From the NCBI GenBank assembly GCA_026075535.2, contig AP026539.1, positions 3,162,001-3,226,000 on the forward strand: a DNA stretch of 64,000 nucleotides. Reading direction: 5' to 3'. The stretch is from Tricholoma matsutake (Eukaryota; Basidiomycota; Agaricomycetes; Agaricales; Tricholomataceae). The position numbers and the translations under genes were made by a program. Below, in pieces: positions 37,458 to 55,265 of the stretch (position 1 is the stretch's first letter; each line of letters starts with the position of its first letter). Under the pieces are notes generated by a model. That model worked only from the letters and a program-made list of their open reading frames with translations. It was not told the origin of the DNA and did not search any database.

Positions 37458-37529
37458 GGATTAGAATCCAGACTTAGGTGGGTGACTGCTGGAGCCGTGA
37501 GAGGCTATGAAGGCGAAAAGGGATTCGAA

Positions 37530-37887
37530 CTAACCAGTAGGAGAAGTCTCTATGACTATATGAAGGTGGTCATCCACAGGTTGTGTTCCGTGGGTGAACA
37601 GATGCGAAAGCAAAAAAAAGTTTCCGGCGGGGAGGACATCATCTTGCTCTCTCTTCAAAGTGATTTTGGGGTAACTGCATGTGGTCCAACGGATATACTG
37701 CTTGATTGCGGACAAGGGCCCAGCATGCCGCCATGACAGTTCCATAATGCACACCAGAAATGCCTACAGCGTCATAATCATACGCAGGAAGAACGAGGAT
37801 TGAAGGGCGCCGGGCGGACGGGGCCAATTTCGTGCGACAGTGGCTTGAGGTGAGCGCTGGATTGGATGACGGGACGCGCAGTGTCAC
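37530..37887 (-). pseudogene. Second Crinkler-like header fragment
   Basis: On the minus strand 'KREQDDVLPAGNFFLLSHLF' and 'PVDDHLHIVIETS' repeat the end of a Crinkler header ('...D.llp...lS..F......HLHIVv..P'), about 300 bp upstream of the first one and in the same orientation. Another open frame ('RPSILVLPAYDYDAVG', starting at 37885-37887) precedes it. The two cannot be joined with confidence. Together with 36062-37457 this makes a tandem pair of header remnants. The 5' end lies only about 130 bp from the start of the diverging NACHT gene at 38021. Confidence 0.45.
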
Positions 37888-38020
37888 AAGCGAAAGGTGA
37901 AGCTGTTAATTCCGTTATGTTATTTTCAATACAAAGACTTCGCTGCCAGCACGTGAAGAGTTCACTATAGCTAACCGGATTTGCTGGAATTTATTTTGTA
38001 CTTTGGACAGTGACAGCATC

Positions 38021-41000
38021 ATGGTGCGCGATCTCATTAATGAGTCTGCTGTGGCTGACCCTTTCTTTGATTGTCCACCCACACAGTTTGTGCGTGATCT
38101 CAATAACCTGTTGTGAGATGGCTTCGCTGACCCTTTCTTTGATTGTCCACCCACACAGCCTGTGCGTGATCTCAATAACCTGTTGTGAGATGGCTTCGCT
38201 GACCCTTTCTTTGATTGTCCATCCACACAGCCTGTGCGTGATCTCAATAACTTGTTGTGAGATGGCTTCGCTGACCCTTTCTTTGATTGTCCACCCACAC
38301 AGGAAGTGCGTGATCTCAATAACCTGTTGTGAGATGGCTTCGCTGACCCTTTCTTTGATTGTCCACCCACACAGGATGTGCGTGATCTCAATAACCCATT
38401 GTGAGATGGCTTCGCTGACCCTTTCTTTGATTGTCCGTCCACCCACACAGGAAGTGCGTGATCTCAATAACCCGTTGTGAGATGGCTCGCTGACCCTTTC
38501 TTTGATTGTCCACCCACACAGTTTGTGCGTGATCTCAATAACCCATTGTGAGATGGCTTCGCTGACCCTTTCTTTGATTGTCCACCCACACAGAATGTGC
38601 ATGATCTCAATAACCCATTGTGAGATGGCTTTGCTGACCCTTTCTTTGATTGTCCACCCAACACAGATAGTGCATGATCTCAATAACCCATTGTGAGATG
38701 GCTTTGCTGACCCTTTCTTTGATTGTCCACCCACACAGAAAGTGAGTGATCTCAATAACCCATTGTGAGATGGCTTTGCTGACCCTTTCTTTGATTGTCC
38801 ACCCACACAGAAAGTGTGTGATCTCAATAACCCATTGTGAGATGGCTTCACTGACCCTTTCTTTGATTGCCCACCCACACAGATAGTCTGTGATCTCAAT
38901 AACCCATTGTGAGATGGCTTCACTGACCCTTTCTTTGATTGCCCACCCACACAGATAGTGCGTGATCTCAATAACCCATTGTGAGATGGCTTCACTGACC
39001 CTTTCTTTGATTGTCCACCCACACAGGAAGTGCATGATCTCAATAACCCATTGTGAGATGGCTTCACTGACCCTTTCTTTGATTGTCCACCCACACAGTT
39101 TGTGCGTGATCTCAATAACCCATTGTGAGATGGCTTCGCTGACCCTTTCTTTGATTGTCCACCCACACAGCAAGTGCGTGATCTCAATAACCCATTGTGA
39201 GATGGCTTCGCTGACCCTTCTCTGATTGTCCACCCACACAGCGAGTGTGTGATCTCAATAACCTGTTGTGAGATGGCTTCACTGACCCTTTCTTTGATTG
39301 TCCACCCACACAGATAGTGTGTGATCTCAATAACCCATTGTGAGATGGCTTTGCTGACCCTTTCTTTGATTGTCCACCCACACAGTTTGTGTGTGATCTC
39401 AATAATCTGTTGTGAGATGGCTTCGATGATCCTTTCTTTGATTGTCCACCCACACAGAAAGTGTGTGATCTCAATAATCCATTGTGAGATGGCTTCGCTG
39501 ACCCTTTCTTTGATTGTCCACCCACACAGGAAGTGCGTGATCTCAATAACCCATTGTGAGATGGCTTCACTGACCCTTTCTTTGATTGTCCACCCACACA
39601 GCAAGTGTGTGATCCCAATAACCCATTGTGAGATGGCTTCACTGACCCTTCTCTGATTGTCCACCCACACAGCAAGTGCGTGATCTCAATAACCCATTGT
39701 GAGATGGCTTCGCTGACCCGTTCTTTGATTGTCCACCCACACAGCGAGTGCGTTATCTCATTGACCTAGCTGAACCTTGACTTTTCTATCACTGTAGGAT
39801 GTGAGTAAGTTATTGTGGGGTGCATTAAGCTGTTCAACATATTTTCAAGCTGGAGCCTGTTGATGAAGCTTTCTATGCATCTAAGGACCGTAGCACTGGT
39901 ACAAATTCTTGTCTACCTCAGACGCAGGTCCCCACACTTGAAACAATCCGCGATTGGGTAAACTCTGACACTAGCTCACCGTTGTTCTGGCTATGTGGTT
40001 CCGCCGGTTCAGGAAAATCCACCATCGCTTATACTATAGCTCAGGAGTGGAGTCATTCCGGTGCCTCATTCTTCTTCTCGAGGGCCCAGCTTTCCCTTCG
40101 CGAAAGTCGATTGGTCTTTCAAACCATTGCTTTTCAACTCAGGATCAACTACCCAATCCTCAGAACGTCCATTTCCCATGCCTTGGGAGATCCAGCCATC
40201 CTTACTGCGAACAATGAAACACAGTTGCAGAAGCTCATTCTTGACCCTATTTTGCAAACAGAAACCCATCTACCAGAACGTCTAGTCATCGTCATTGATG
40301 CCCTTGATGAATGTGACGACAATATCATTGTCAATATTGTCGAGCTCCTTGCAACAACCCTTGAAAAATATGATTCATCTATCCGGATTCGATTGCGCTT
40401 CCTTATTACGAGCCGACCTGAACGACCCCTCCTAGAGTTCTTCACAGAGAAACGTATCCCGTCCTTCGATCTGTCCGCCATTAATCCTGACGATAGGGAA
40501 AAGGATATTTGCATCTTCCTCAAAGACGAGTTGCGAAAGCTTGCTAATTCCACTCCATATTGGCAGAAGGAACCGGAGGAGAAGGATATTCGGCTTCTAG
40601 CCAAAATATCCGGAGGGGTCTTTGTTGCAGCACGTATCGCTGTGGATTTTGTCGCTTTCGGGAAGTCCCCGGATTCTCAGCTTCGAAAGCTGCACAAAGC
40701 TGGTCATATTTCAGGGCTCGATGTTGTGTACCAGCTAGTTCTAGATACCATAGCCAAGGAGTCGTCGGCGTGGGACATCCTTCAGCCAATCATCGGGACA
40801 GTTATTCTTTCCTTCACTCCACTCTCGAGACAGGGATTAACCGACCTTCTGCACATTGGAACTGAGGGTCTTAACGATTTACTAGTCGCTCTTCGTGCAG
40901 TTATCCATGTACGAGAGGGGGACGCAATTTACCCCATCCATGCATCCCTTCGGGACTTTTTAACGGATCCAGACCGTTGCACTGATTCCCGCGTCTTTGT

Positions 41001-41567
41001 TCACCCAACTCACCATCATAACATGATTTCTCATGCTTGCTTCGACCGCATGACTTCTCTGCTACAGAAGCCCGATCTTCGCGACATCCGTCGGAATGGG
41101 ATGAAGTTGCTTCCAGGTGACTTGACTTACGCATGTCAATACTGGGCAAGACACTTGGCCGAGTCGAATCTCGACCAATCCTTGGTAGATCGCCTCCAAG
41201 ACTTTGCCTCTGACCGTCTTCTGTATTGGATAGAGCGTCTATGTTTTATTGATGATTTAGACCTGGGGATCAGTGGTTTGGGTATCGTGATCAAGGTTTT
41301 GGTGGGTCCTCATTTGCATGGTTGTGAACGCAAAGCTCAATATTCAACCTCCAGCCCCCCAACCGAGTACCGGATGAGGTTATCGCGCTGCTATCTGATG
41401 CCCATTGGTTCTTGGAGCATTTCGAAGACTTACTCTCAATATCTGCAACGTACACCTATACTGCTGCACTACAGCTGACACCTGCAAACACCAGACTGTA
41501 TCAACAGTATGCATCGAAATACGAGGACAAGGCATTACACCTGACATTGAAGTGGGATGAACTATAG
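38021..41567 (+). CDS. NACHT/STAND protein whose N-terminus is split into 3-nt micro-exons (predicted)
   Basis: The certain part is the exon from 39850: 'LEPVDEAFYAS', then the P-loop 'GSAGSGKST' near 39997-40023, Walker B 'VIDALDECDD' near 40290-40318, 'LITSRPE' near 40404-40424, and a helical tail with 'LLPGDLTYACQYWARHLAES'. This is the agaricomycete NACHT family. A 53-nt intron (41302-41354) leads to the last exon, ending 'LHLTLKWDEL' at 41567. No WD40, ankyrin or TPR repeats follow. Upstream, ATG 38021-38023 abuts a GTGCGC donor. Removing 26 introns (38024-39849) leaves 25 single codons in phase with CTG 39850. The predicted start reads 'MFPPEDEFNIKKI' then 'IEFQRIFKEQQRD' before 'LEPV'. 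Total about 580 residues. STAND proteins of this kind are thought to act in fungal non-self recognition. The micro-exon model is inference and needs cDNA; the NACHT exon is secure. Confidence 0.8.
38024..39797 (+). repeat. Tandem array of 72-bp units: 69-nt intron plus 3-nt variable micro-exon
   Basis: 24 triplets lie between CACACAG (acceptor) and GTG (donor), the first at 38087-38089, the last at 39745-39747. The distance, 1,658 bp, equals 23 x 72 plus the net of five indels (+4 near 38433, -1 near 38485, +1 near 38659, -1 near 39217, -1 near 39648), all inside the intron part. Donors are GTGCGT, GTGTGT, GTGCAT, GTGAGT and once GTCTGT. A CTGAC branch-like site stands about 28 nt before the acceptor in nearly all units (lost in the one at 39421-39440). 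Triplets: TTT x4, GAA x4, ATA x4, AAA x3, CAA x3, CCT x2, CGA x2, GAT x1, AAT x1. The unit is otherwise almost invariant. The first intron (63 nt) and the last two (39748-39797 and 39801-39849, with triplet GAT between) have different sequences but the same boundaries. Because 72 is divisible by three, long stop-free frames also appear on the minus strand. Confidence 0.95.
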
Positions 41568-41854: not shown

Positions 41855-44689
41855 TCAGTTTTTGGATGGATCAGATCCACCATGATTCGCCCGCTCTTCC
41901 TTGTGGTACGTGGTGGCCATGTTTACAAACTCAAGCTTTTCTCCATAGTGTTTATAAAGTGCAGAGTTTCTAGGCGAAAGTGGCAACGCTGTAACGTATG
42001 TGTGCATTGCAGATATAGCAAGCAGGCCATGAAAATCAGTCAGGAAATGGACTGCATCGGAGAGCAAGGGTATCAATTTCGGCAGTACATTTTTGTATGA
42101 CTGCTTAAAGAAGTTAGTTGTGCATTGTTGCCGGAAAGGTCAGGGACTTACTTTGAGACTTTCAATCGTGGTCTGTAAGGCGTCAACTCCCTCGGACAGG
42201 CAATCAAGAAGACATAAGATTTCAATCCAATGTAAGAGGTGCTCAAGCGCAAACTTGGTGAGAAGTGCAAGTAAAGAATCATCTTGTTTGGATTTAGCAA
42301 AGTGCCCTGCCCAATAACGACTGGCATAAACCAAGTCACCGGGAAGCAATTTGACTTTCTCTTTCACTTCTGCATCTCTGTTCTTCTTCGTATGCTTCTG
42401 AAGGTGGCATTTATCCCTCTCTAGCTGATTCATCATACGCTCTAAACAAGACCTAGCAAGAACGCCGTGATACTTGGCGGTGTTGATAAACCAAGCAGTT
42501 TTGTTGTACTTGGGGTTGACTAAAAAGTCATGGAAAGATGAATGGAACGCATGTACGACGTCATTGGGGGTACCTGGAACATGGACGACCGAGCGCAGCC
42601 CGTCGAGCACGAGTTCCTTGATCTCCAAGTGTAGCTGTAACAGATCAAGCAACGCCTGCATGGACAATCGTGCTGATGCAAGTATGATGGCGCCAATGAT
42701 AACACGAAAGGACTCTTGCTCGCGTGGCACTGGCACTTCTCTAACCGCCGTCTTCATGATTAGTTGATACAAGTTGTCAAGCCCAGAGAGCCCATCTGAT
42801 CCGAGTCGGACTTCCTGAAGCCGAAGCGTAGGTGAGGGTCTAAGGAATCTGATGACGGTTGATGCTGCAATGAATAGTCCCTCTGAAATTTGGACCAGAA
42901 AGTCAATGTCCGTACTACTCAAGAACTTCCCGAGCTCATCCGTGATATACAGGGAAATATCCTGCCCAGCGTCGAAGTCGAAAAGATCAAGGCGGCATGC
43001 ATTAGAGCTGGTCGATGGTTGCATAAAGAGATTGTAGAGATGTTTTTCTGGTCGGCAAGTGACCAAGAATCGTAAGGGAAGGGGTGCACTGTAAGAGGAA
43101 AGGCTGGTCGCAAGGAGTTTGATTACTTCGGATGCCGCATCATCGGAGTCGCACTCATCTATTGCGTCGATGACAACGACAAGGCGACTAGGAAGAAAAG
43201 TAGCCGTCTTGGAAATAGGATCAAGGATTAGCTTCTCCAATTGGTTCGCCTTTGTATGGAGGATCGTCGTGTCTTCTATTATGGCGCCGGCAATCGCCTG
43301 CCTAAGAATGGAATGCTGGTGACCAAGTTGAAATGCAATGGTTTTGAAGAGAATATCGGTGTTGGATAGAAAACCCCTGGAGAAAAAAAAGGAAGCGCCA
43401 AGAAGGTTTTTGTTCGGCCTACTGTAGTACTCTGCAATTGTATGGGAAAGAGTAGATTTTCCAGATCCAGCCGGTCCATGCAGCCAAAACAGTCTGCCAG
43501 GATCGGATTCCACCCAACTGTGAATCTGCTCCAGTACTTTACCGCGTGTAGCTTCTAGACAAGTCCTGCCGCCCGAATGTCTACGCATGTCGGAGTTGAA
43601 AGTTGTATCATGCGGCGGCTCCAGCTTAGAAAACGCTGTGCGTTGAGCTTCCGACTAGAAAGACATTCAGCGCTACAGTAAAGAAGATCGAAACGTTGGG
43701 AGACCTTTTGCCAATTCTGATACAGAGTTAGACCCTGCCGCTCACAACCTTAGCGCATAGACTCACCCGGATATCAACTGTCAAGACAAACTGTAACACA
43801 ATATCATGAGCACTACGCCAAAGAAAGGAAGACGAGACTACTCACCCCTGCTTCATTTATTATTCCATCCAATTTCTTCCAGGACTTGTCAAGGGAAGAT
43901 GCATTATCTTTGCTGTTGATGTACTTTGTGATCCAGGCTTGATTATTCACGGCTTCAATCGCTGAACCTAATTCATCAAACGAACTAGAGGGGGAGTGTC
44001 TGTACGTTGAAGTGGTAGGAGAGTGTATGATGTTACTTTCTCAGCTTATCCAATATTTGAGACAATTCTTCTCCGTGCCCATGCAGCGAGTTGATGGTAG
44101 GGATTAATCGATCTATACGATCTTTTAGATCCTTGAAGGTCTCTTCATTCTCGTATTTTGTCTGAAAGCATATCAAGTGGAATACTCCAATACAATTAGG
44201 TGTCGCTAACCTCGACAGTTTCGACAACCATCAAGACCCCCTTAATGGCCACTGAGAGTGCATTACCGTGAGGAATTAATTTGGTCGCTGACGCTAGTGT
44301 ATTCAAAGCGAGCTTGGAGGCCTCGAGGGCAGTCTTGGCATTAGGAACTACTGCCTTTGGGCTGGCCTTGGTATTAGACTTGTTTCCTGCACTACTTGTT
44401 CATGCAGCAGTTCTGTCAGCTCCGGCGTCTATTCCACGATCATGATCATGCACCTAGATTGAGAGTTTCCTGCATCACTTGGATCTACTTCAGACTGACG
44501 AGCCCAGATCTTACGACGACTAGAAGGCTGGGATTAACACTTTAACATAAAAACTCGGGTTGCAAGAGACACATACCCGCTCTTGGGTCGTTTTTCAGTA
44601 GCTGGATCGATATCAGGCTGCGGGGTTGTGGACTGCGACCTGCGAGCGCGGGAGCGAAAGTTCAAACTGAAGCGACTGATATTGGACAT
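41855..44689 (-). CDS. NACHT/STAND protein with N-terminal helical domain
   Basis: Starts at ATG 44687-44689 (MSNISRFSLNFRSRARRS, basic). Spliced exons give 'KIWARQSEVDPSDAGNSQS', then a helical domain ('KTALEASKLALNTLASATKL', 'LSVAIKGVLMVVETVE', 'LKDRIDRLIPTINSLHGHGE', 'FDELGSAIEAVNNQAWITKY') resembling the HeLo/MLKL-like four-helix bundles that precede NACHT in mushroom STAND proteins (inference). Two mini-exons of 24 nt (43767-43790) and 30 nt (43705-43734), both phase 0, lead to 'AFSKLEPPHD'. The NACHT has P-loop 'GPAGSGKST', Walker B 'VVVIDAIDECDSDD' and 'LVTCRPEKHLY'. After 42140 one more intron leads to 'HFLTDFHGLLAISAMHTYVT' and the end 'GSDPSKN' at 41855. It has no C-terminal repeat domain. 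It is the tail-to-tail neighbour of 38021-41567 (288 bp apart) and clearly its paralogue. Confidence 0.88.
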
Positions 44690-54699: not shown

Positions 54700-55265
54700 A
54701 GCAATAAATTACAATTAGTTAGTTTATAAAAACAAAAAGCAAATGAAAAAAACTCACATAGGGCCCAAACGACACGATCTGCGTCATTTGGGCCCATGTT
54801 GGCTCGTTTGCGGGTGGTGGCATCATTACTAGTAGATTATAACCTAGAAATGAAAAAAATGAGTTAGTTAGTTTATTAAAATAAAAACCAAATGAAAAAA
54901 ACTTACGTAGGGCCCAAACAATGAAATCTGCATCATTTGGGCCCACATTGGCTCGTTTGCGAGTGGTGGCATTGTTGCCAGTAGATTATAACCTAGAAAG
55001 CTAAAAAAAGGTTAGTTAGTTTATAAAAACAAAAAGCAAATGAAAAAAACCTTACTTAGGGCCCAAACGACGCGATCTGCATCGTTTGGGCCTGTGTTCT
55101 GTCCAATCACGTCGTTTGGGCCCATGTTATGTCTGGCAGTCGAGTAGAACCTATAAAACAAATGAAACAAGTTAGTTAGTACAAAAGAACAAGAAGCAAA
55201 CAAAAAAAAACATACTTAGGCCCCAAATGACGCGATATGCGTCATTTGGGCCTGCGTTCCATCCA
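54700..55265 (-). repeat. Tandem array of hairpin exon-like plus intron-like units
   Basis: On the minus strand four units each carry an inverted repeat of the form GGCCCAAAYGACG ... CGTCRTTTGGGCC. After each comes a donor (GTAAGT, GTGAGT, GTAAGG or GTATGT), a T-rich tract, CTAAC or TACTAAC and an AG acceptor before GTTATAATCTAC or GTTCTACTCGAC. Intron-like lengths are about 50-65 nt, the normal size in this window. Short exon-like pieces (about 80-100 nt) contain 'PPPANEPTWAQMTQIVSFGP' in one frame, but their phases do not keep one frame. Confidence 0.7.

Follow-up and report, generated by a model that had tools for sequence, protein, structure and literature searches.

The NACHT-ANK genes of the truffle T. 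melanosporum are described as containing "dozens of 3 bp mini-exons" (PMC9815663), "3-bp long microexons" (PMC10197012), "tens of codon-sized microexons" (PMC3689799), and "multiple codon-sized microexons" (PMC4986451). In these same descriptions, which cite Iotti et al. 2012, the mini-exons are alternatively spliced. Fungal NLRs are also described in which WD, ANK, or TPR repeats are highly conserved and a few codons are hypervariable (PMC4986451). Micro-exon genes of schistosomes encode secreted proteins from exons of 3-81 bp (abstract) or 6-81 bp (text), mostly 15 bp, that are separated by introns of 0.1-5 kb, and the portion of the source consulted makes no mention of an array of identical introns (PMC10526429). 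Lastly, in Cryptococcus CNN00420, intron gain is attributed to expansion of a tandem repeat of ~107 nt that is present in few copies (PMC2395259). The statement of an earlier note on the DNA analyzed here, that no gene with a run of 3-nt exons is known, is contradicted by these four descriptions of the truffle genes. The literature searched, as far as its excerpts extend, describes runs of 3-nt exons in the truffle case only and makes no mention of one-codon exon chains in basidiomycetes.

The gene described here belongs to the basidiomycete Tricholoma matsutake and lies in a 64,000-nucleotide stretch of contig AP026539.1 (hereafter, the window). The best explanation for the whole of the observations, which is considered highly likely, is that 25 predicted one-codon exons would encode a variable N-terminal tail of an NLR-like gene.

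Predicted exons upstream of the NACHT exon

Between the ATG and the NACHT exon, 24 sites of the form CACAG/NNN/GT are found, with triplets located from 38087 to 39747 (Table 1). The introns are 69 nt long in 18 of the 24 units and 63, 73, 68, 70, 68, and 68 nt long in the other six, whereas the triplet is invariably 3 nt. Consistent with the earlier note, there are 24 units with exactly three bases after each intron, all array indels are intronic, and the first donor (GTGCGC) directly follows the ATG at 38021-38023; the 72-bp unit length that it gave to all units applies to 18 of them. The uniform intron signals that it described are likewise present in part: CACAG acceptors are found at all 24 sites, one array donor is GTCTGT, and one unit is without the CTGAC site. 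The first array intron, at 63 nt, resembles the repeat only in part. Downstream of the array, the reported succession of an intron, GAT, and a second intron is confirmed, with the amendment that the first of these introns is not wholly unlike the array. When joined, the window codons (MFPPEDEFNIKKIIEFQRIFKEQQRD) contain zero stops and enter LEPVDEAFYAS in phase 0, as had been noted for the 25 triplets. The central proposal of the note, an N-terminus encoded by 25 consecutive 3-nt micro-exons, is thereby strengthened by the frame and, as described below, by stop avoidance, a codon motif, and a homologous protein, while the splicing itself stays predicted.

A scored splice-chain scan was performed on both strands of the whole 64 kb for exon lengths of k = 1 to 12, and chains with at least 3 exons and a score of 10 or more were listed. 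The sole chain listed is the window array at k = 3. Its score of 103.7 (25 exons) compares with a maximum of 2.0 (1 exon) among 200 dinucleotide-preserving shuffles of 38021-39852. No RNA families were found at gathering score in 37500-40200, and the exact intron pattern gave 0 matches in the viral contigs searched. Elsewhere in the window, a 149-bp tandem repeat of 2.5 copies is located at 54715-55092 and is unrelated to the array.

Table 1. Coordinates of the window gene, numbered from the first nucleotide of the window.
Feature	Position	Strand	Description	Basis
Predicted start codon, end of first coding exon	38021..38023	+	ATG, then donor GTGCGC	sequence
Array	38024..39747	+	24 introns (63-73 nt), one predicted 3-nt exon after each	
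Array triplets in order	38024..39747	+	TTT CCT CCT GAA GAT GAA TTT AAT ATA AAA AAA ATA ATA GAA TTT CAA CGA ATA TTT AAA GAA CAA CAA CGA	
Intron	39748..39797	+	50 nt; 5' part like the first array intron (by eye), remainder unlike	
25th predicted 3-nt exon	39798..39800	+	GAT (Asp); homologue P0003 likewise has Asp before the NACHT-exon Leu	
Intron preceding NACHT exon	39801..39849	+	49 nt; final codons ..FK before Leu, as in P0005, P0006, P0008, P0025	
Main exon	39850..41301	+	NACHT / NPHP3_N; opens CTGGAG; 484 codons; phase 0 at both ends	
Intron	41302..41354	+	53 nt; missing in homologue P0003	
Last coding exon	41355..41567	+	terminus ..LKWDEL, stop	

The spliced model joins the ATG, 24 triplets, GAT, 39850-41301, and 41355-41567 to give 580 aa plus a stop. 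The main exon matches NPHP3_N (7.3e-27) and NACHT (8.3e-09), and by this predicted NTPase domain the gene is classed as a fungal NLR-like (STAND NACHT) gene. Part of the fungal NLR-like family has C-terminal WD, ANK, or TPR repeats. With E values up to 0.1 accepted, a scan of 39850-41478, which did not follow the last exon (41355-41567) in its own frame, detected none of these repeats. A second NACHT gene, 42% alike, is located on the minus strand at 42140-43654 and is convergent with the window gene.

A view of the predicted splice pattern at the protein level comes from homologue P0003 (574 aa, source jgi), which aligns with the window model over 559 residues (76%), starting at RKRDL / QQRDL and running through the C-terminus. 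Its tail before the Leu is MTEYDYSPEAYEAYLRKRD; P0003 reads ..RKRD joined to the main-exon Leu where ..EQQRD is predicted for the window gene. Because it is without the intron at 41302-41354, P0003 looks spliced. At the same junction, P0005, P0006, P0008, and P0025 read ..FKL.., like the unspliced window. P0003 supports the predicted last splice and the final Arg-Asp rather than every single exon. Its N-terminal tail has 19 residues versus the 26 predicted for the window gene, and this single homologue could be an intron-poor gene rather than a cDNA.

Chains at paralogous NACHT loci

A genome search with the NACHT exon gave at least 73 matches, from which 30 loci were fetched, or 29 after removal of the window's own (L005-L033), each with 1.5 kb of flank, such that chains farther off would be missed. 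Among the matches listed, the best after self is the minus-strand neighbor at 42140-43654, at whose locus (L005) no chain of 3-nt exons was found. Chains of at least four 3-nt exons are present on the sense strand, 3' of NACHT, at 17 of the 29 loci (L012, L013, L014, L016, L018-L021, L023, L025-L030, L032, and L033), and 12 are chainless. Exon lengths besides 3 gave no chain above one exon at any of the fetched NACHT loci. Five of the chainless loci (L007, L008, L010, L011, and L022) have repeats of 126-129 bp 3' of NACHT, a length that is presumably typical of WD repeats. Judged by their sequences, a WD-like repeat tail and a one-codon exon chain look like alternatives at these NACHT loci.

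The chain introns are mostly 67-69 nt across several repeat families (50-97 nt overall). In addition to the window's own, these families begin GTGCGTGATCATTC.. (a), GTAAGTGATTCTG.. (b), GTAAGTAGCAGC.. (c), and GTGTGTGATCTGC.. (d); the first bases of the window array intron resemble family a, and sister arrays exist with 70- and 71-bp units. DNA searches of the genome with the family arrays gave 24 (a), 27 (b), 3 (c), and 3 (d) matches, which were grouped by hand into 33 places. At 27 of these, the array is on the same strand as, and 3' of, a NACHT match, at a distance of 0.4-1.1 kb at 26 places and 2.2 kb at one. The six places without a NACHT match alongside are C12:3302803, C13:1192808, C1:2366069 (68% identity), C10:4669162, C13:5725500, and C10:2553505. 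The family-a chain at L042 (C12:3301300-3305800) comprises 21 exons, includes one TGA, and has no NACHT match listed nearby; this array is probably a relic. Introners and introner-like elements were rejected as an identity for the arrays, as the window array used as a query matches only itself in the genome and 27 of the 33 places of the other families adjoin a NACHT match. Stops are found inside the NACHT match at nine of the 17 chain loci (L012, L013, L019, L020, L021, L028, L030, L032, and L033), and two more, L018 and L027, look frameshifted after NACHT; therefore, many of the chain-bearing paralogues are probably pseudogenes.

For whole-gene chains, longer DNA was taken around selected paralogues. 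The chains comprise 63 exons in g016, 42 in g029 with AAA, TTT, and GTG ahead, 37+3 in g026, 34+3 in g027, 27 in g012, and 24 in g020. In g029, the NACHT exon ends ..STQKK and is followed by an intron of ~48 nt and the exon LQGLVKRGGTQVLEWKLRSISGILQ. Downstream of LQGLVKRGGTQVLEWKLRSISGILQ are AAA, TTT, GTG, the chain, the last exon FAKQKFNLLPNMIMLEGSIILAFKHISL, and a stop, in phase 0 throughout; the gap between GTG and the next AAA is ~135 nt, in which another small exon could hide. In g016, a family-b gene, the exon WRDVIGSFNHVLNVVQ leads into the chain with phase 0 at the 5' end. Both chain ends are in phase 0 in the window model and in g029. A GC in place of GT is observed at 5 of the 63 family-b chain donors of g016 (C3:11607600-11615685), for example in GAT/GCAAGT.

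The public T. matsutake models P0121-P0124, which share 76-95% identity with a paralogue model over 64% of the searched region, are without the chains. P0121 contains the same two exons as g029 plus K and then VSLSCDHFL, a read-through into the next intron. P0122-P0124 likewise splice to the first one-codon exon (K) of the family-a genes and then continue into the intron. These ends are likely misannotations of the chain family, and they illustrate how gene finders miss the chains: all four models end shortly after entering the intron downstream of the first one-codon exon. In the Amanita brunnescens homologues P0127 and P0128, the exon end ..ISGILE / ISKILQ is found in common and is followed by an apparent intron; the genes for these proteins may have one-codon exon chains as well.

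Coding signal and alternative readings

The array triplets are very probably one-codon exons in at least part of the transcripts, with splicing predicted from the sequence. The alternative that fares best, although it is improbable, is a composite intron, in which the mature mRNA mostly runs from the ATG, or from an upstream exon, straight to GAT or to the NACHT exon, with the triplets seldom or never included. The donors and acceptors of the array are alike and would compete, and this reading agrees with the chainless models P0121-P0124 and with two protein searches that used spliced paralogue models (15 matches; 161 candidates, none significant), in which nothing past the first one-codon exon, and no chain peptide, was recovered. 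It does not fit the P0003 tail, which is joined at the same junction, or the scarcity of stops in phase 0. Pooled over 19 loci, namely the window, the 17 chain paralogues, and the C12 place, the 429 triplets contain 3 phase-0 stops versus a mean of 26.9 expected with shuffled columns (minimum of 13 among 5000); the pooled units are not independent, hence these counts are given without a probability. The other phases contain 13 stops in 404 triplets (phase 1) and 58 in 404 (phase 2). The three chain stops, located in g027, g033, and the C12 place, all fall in damaged loci: compared with its sister g026, g027 appears frameshifted downstream of NACHT; g033 has five TGA in NACHT (L033), and its chain TGA falls in a stretch of uncertain parse; and the genome search listed no NACHT match at the C12 place. 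Since most damaged loci are without a chain stop, damage is a poor predictor of chain stops.

The composite reading also leaves aside that exact 3-nt exons and a codon motif persist where the introns are dissimilar. The chains end in ..WKDVIDH (family b), ..WENVINQF (c), or ..(N/K)DV(D/N).. (a). Between families, the four introns around this motif are like interior-shuffled introns (z of -1.2 to 2.9 in 32 comparisons), whereas within families z is 7.1 to 14.2 (8 comparisons). At the family-b head (8 loci), the substitution values are 0.065 for exons, 0.057 for splice sites, and 0.120 for intron interiors, with 0, 0, and 247 gaps, respectively; at the family-b tail (3 loci), they are 0.074, 0.044, and 0.101, with 0, 0, and 24 gaps. 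In the family-a tail (7 loci), exons and intron interiors are equal at 0.134 each, with gaps that come partly from cut-off loci, and this comparison does not support codon constraint.

A second alternative, regarded as very unlikely, is a minisatellite, a non-coding and unspliced unit in which a mutable triplet is by chance flanked by GT and AG. Tandem Repeats Finder does report the window array as a plain 72-bp tandem array, and CpG-type decay accounts for 34 of the 48 changes in the window introns. However, several repeat families beside NACHT genes have the same 3-nt exon and introns of mostly 67-69 nt, non-repeated stretches of the chains keep 3-nt exons too, and shuffled sequences yield no chain. 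Least credible is a coding gene on the minus strand, where a frame (37991-39685) is open for 564 codons and would specify a 24-aa repeat in which a single residue varies. The unit length of 72 is divisible by 3, and the unit is open in two minus-strand frames; where the length changes by 1 and 4 nt, one repeated peptide gives way to another, unrelated one. Judged from unit length, the 70- and 71-bp sister units would shift the frame at every unit. This repeat protein was rejected.

Codon diversity, proposed mechanism, and known systems

In the window, the mean diversity of intron columns over 23 array units is 0.05 versus 0.75, 0.65, and 0.44 at triplet positions 1-3. Across six arrays, intron diversity is 0.03-0.09, compared with 0.56-0.77 at triplet positions 1 and 2 and 0.38-0.51 at the third; the exception is g012, in which third-position diversity is 0 and all 13 triplets end in T. 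Among unit pairs with identical introns in the six arrays, the codon is unlike in 53 of 68. Because the codons are far more different than the introns, duplication alone fails to explain the array. Array triplets always end in A or T (C or G in 0 of 245, all families), flank triplets end in G in 46 of 184 cases and never in C, and NGT array codons number 4 versus 69 for NGA. A ready reading is avoidance of NGT codons (a second donor) and NAG codons (an acceptor), along with CpG decay of any C that precedes the intron G. The few NGT codons and absent C or G endings are as expected if stray splice sites carry a cost; the absence of all G-ending array codons is not explained by this reading. CpG-type changes are a minority in the introns of the other five arrays (1-18 versus 23-125).

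The arrays show a weak trace of tandem growth. In the window, likeness falls slightly with distance, with r of 0.175 for introns (P 0.029) and 0.137 for codons (P 0.044). In the five paralogue arrays, no distance trend of intron or codon likeness was detected at P 0.05 (P 0.05-0.95); an introns-only test of the six arrays gave no dependence of codon distance on intron distance (P 0.11-0.85), and no excess of adjacent equal codons was found (P 0.13-0.98). The earlier note had offered two origins, multiplication of one intron between successive codons or tandem expansion of an intron-plus-codon unit. The latter is the simpler, because the introns form tandem families, though its trace is weak and duplication alone is insufficient.

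In the proposed mechanism, an array would grow by tandem duplication and unequal exchange of the intron-plus-codon unit. The introns would be kept alike as spacers for recombination, and the codons would diversify, with selection on a recognition or signaling surface as the probable cause; such selection is plausible by analogy and given the contrast with the introns. Each short intron would be removed by intron definition, probably in the order of emergence from the polymerase. Since all exons are 3 nt, pairing of any donor with any later acceptor would keep the frame, and exon skipping could plausibly give a pool of in-frame tail isoforms, varied in both length and sequence, alongside a main product. 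If spliced as predicted, the chains would be an extreme test of exon recognition, with dozens of exons that have no room for exonic signals, and would reveal a receptor family that varies single residues without a frame break.

This strategy is the same as that of the 3-bp mini-exons of truffle NACHT-ANK genes, as those are quoted, here in a basidiomycete and, in the window gene, at the N-terminus. Like the truffle nank genes, the matsutake genes, known here from DNA alone, combine NACHT, tens of predicted one-codon exons, an expanded family, and a proposed role in NLR diversification. In contrast, the truffle genes are from an ascomycete, have ankyrin repeats, and have reported alternative splicing, whereas no ANK was found in 39850-41478 of the basidiomycete gene. 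The truffle mini-exons are described as diversifying a C-terminal recognition region, whereas the window array is N-terminal; the 17 paralogue chains are 3' of NACHT. Near-identical introns with hypervariable codons characterize the matsutake arrays, a comparison for which the truffle genes are represented by the quoted descriptions. The occurrence in a basidiomycete and in truffle makes origin, whether shared, convergent, or transferred, a concrete question. Tentatively, and with somewhat less than even prospects, the chains may constitute a repertoire generator at codon resolution, in which unequal exchange between near-identical introns shuffles single residues in DNA and in-frame skipping shuffles them again in RNA, at either end of the receptor, and which arose or persisted in two fungal phyla.

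The CNN00420 case resembles this one in the multiplication of an intron-bearing repeat, and differs, as described, in that its repeat includes larger exon parts. Cryptococcus is also a basidiomycete. Schistosome micro-exon genes, in the source excerpt, share many short exons, mostly multiples of three, and protein variation by splicing; their long introns (0.1-5 kb) are not encountered here, where chain introns are 50-97 nt. With the fungal WD, ANK, or TPR NLRs, as described in PMC4986451, the matsutake arrays share an NLR setting and tandem repeats that are kept alike while a few codons diversify. In those NLRs, the repeat is conserved at the protein level, whereas here the conserved portion is intron, and the variable codon alone would enter the protein. 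Relative to these systems, the matsutake array is not a first; what is new is the basidiomycete host, the N-terminal array, and codons whose variability far exceeds that of the intervening introns.
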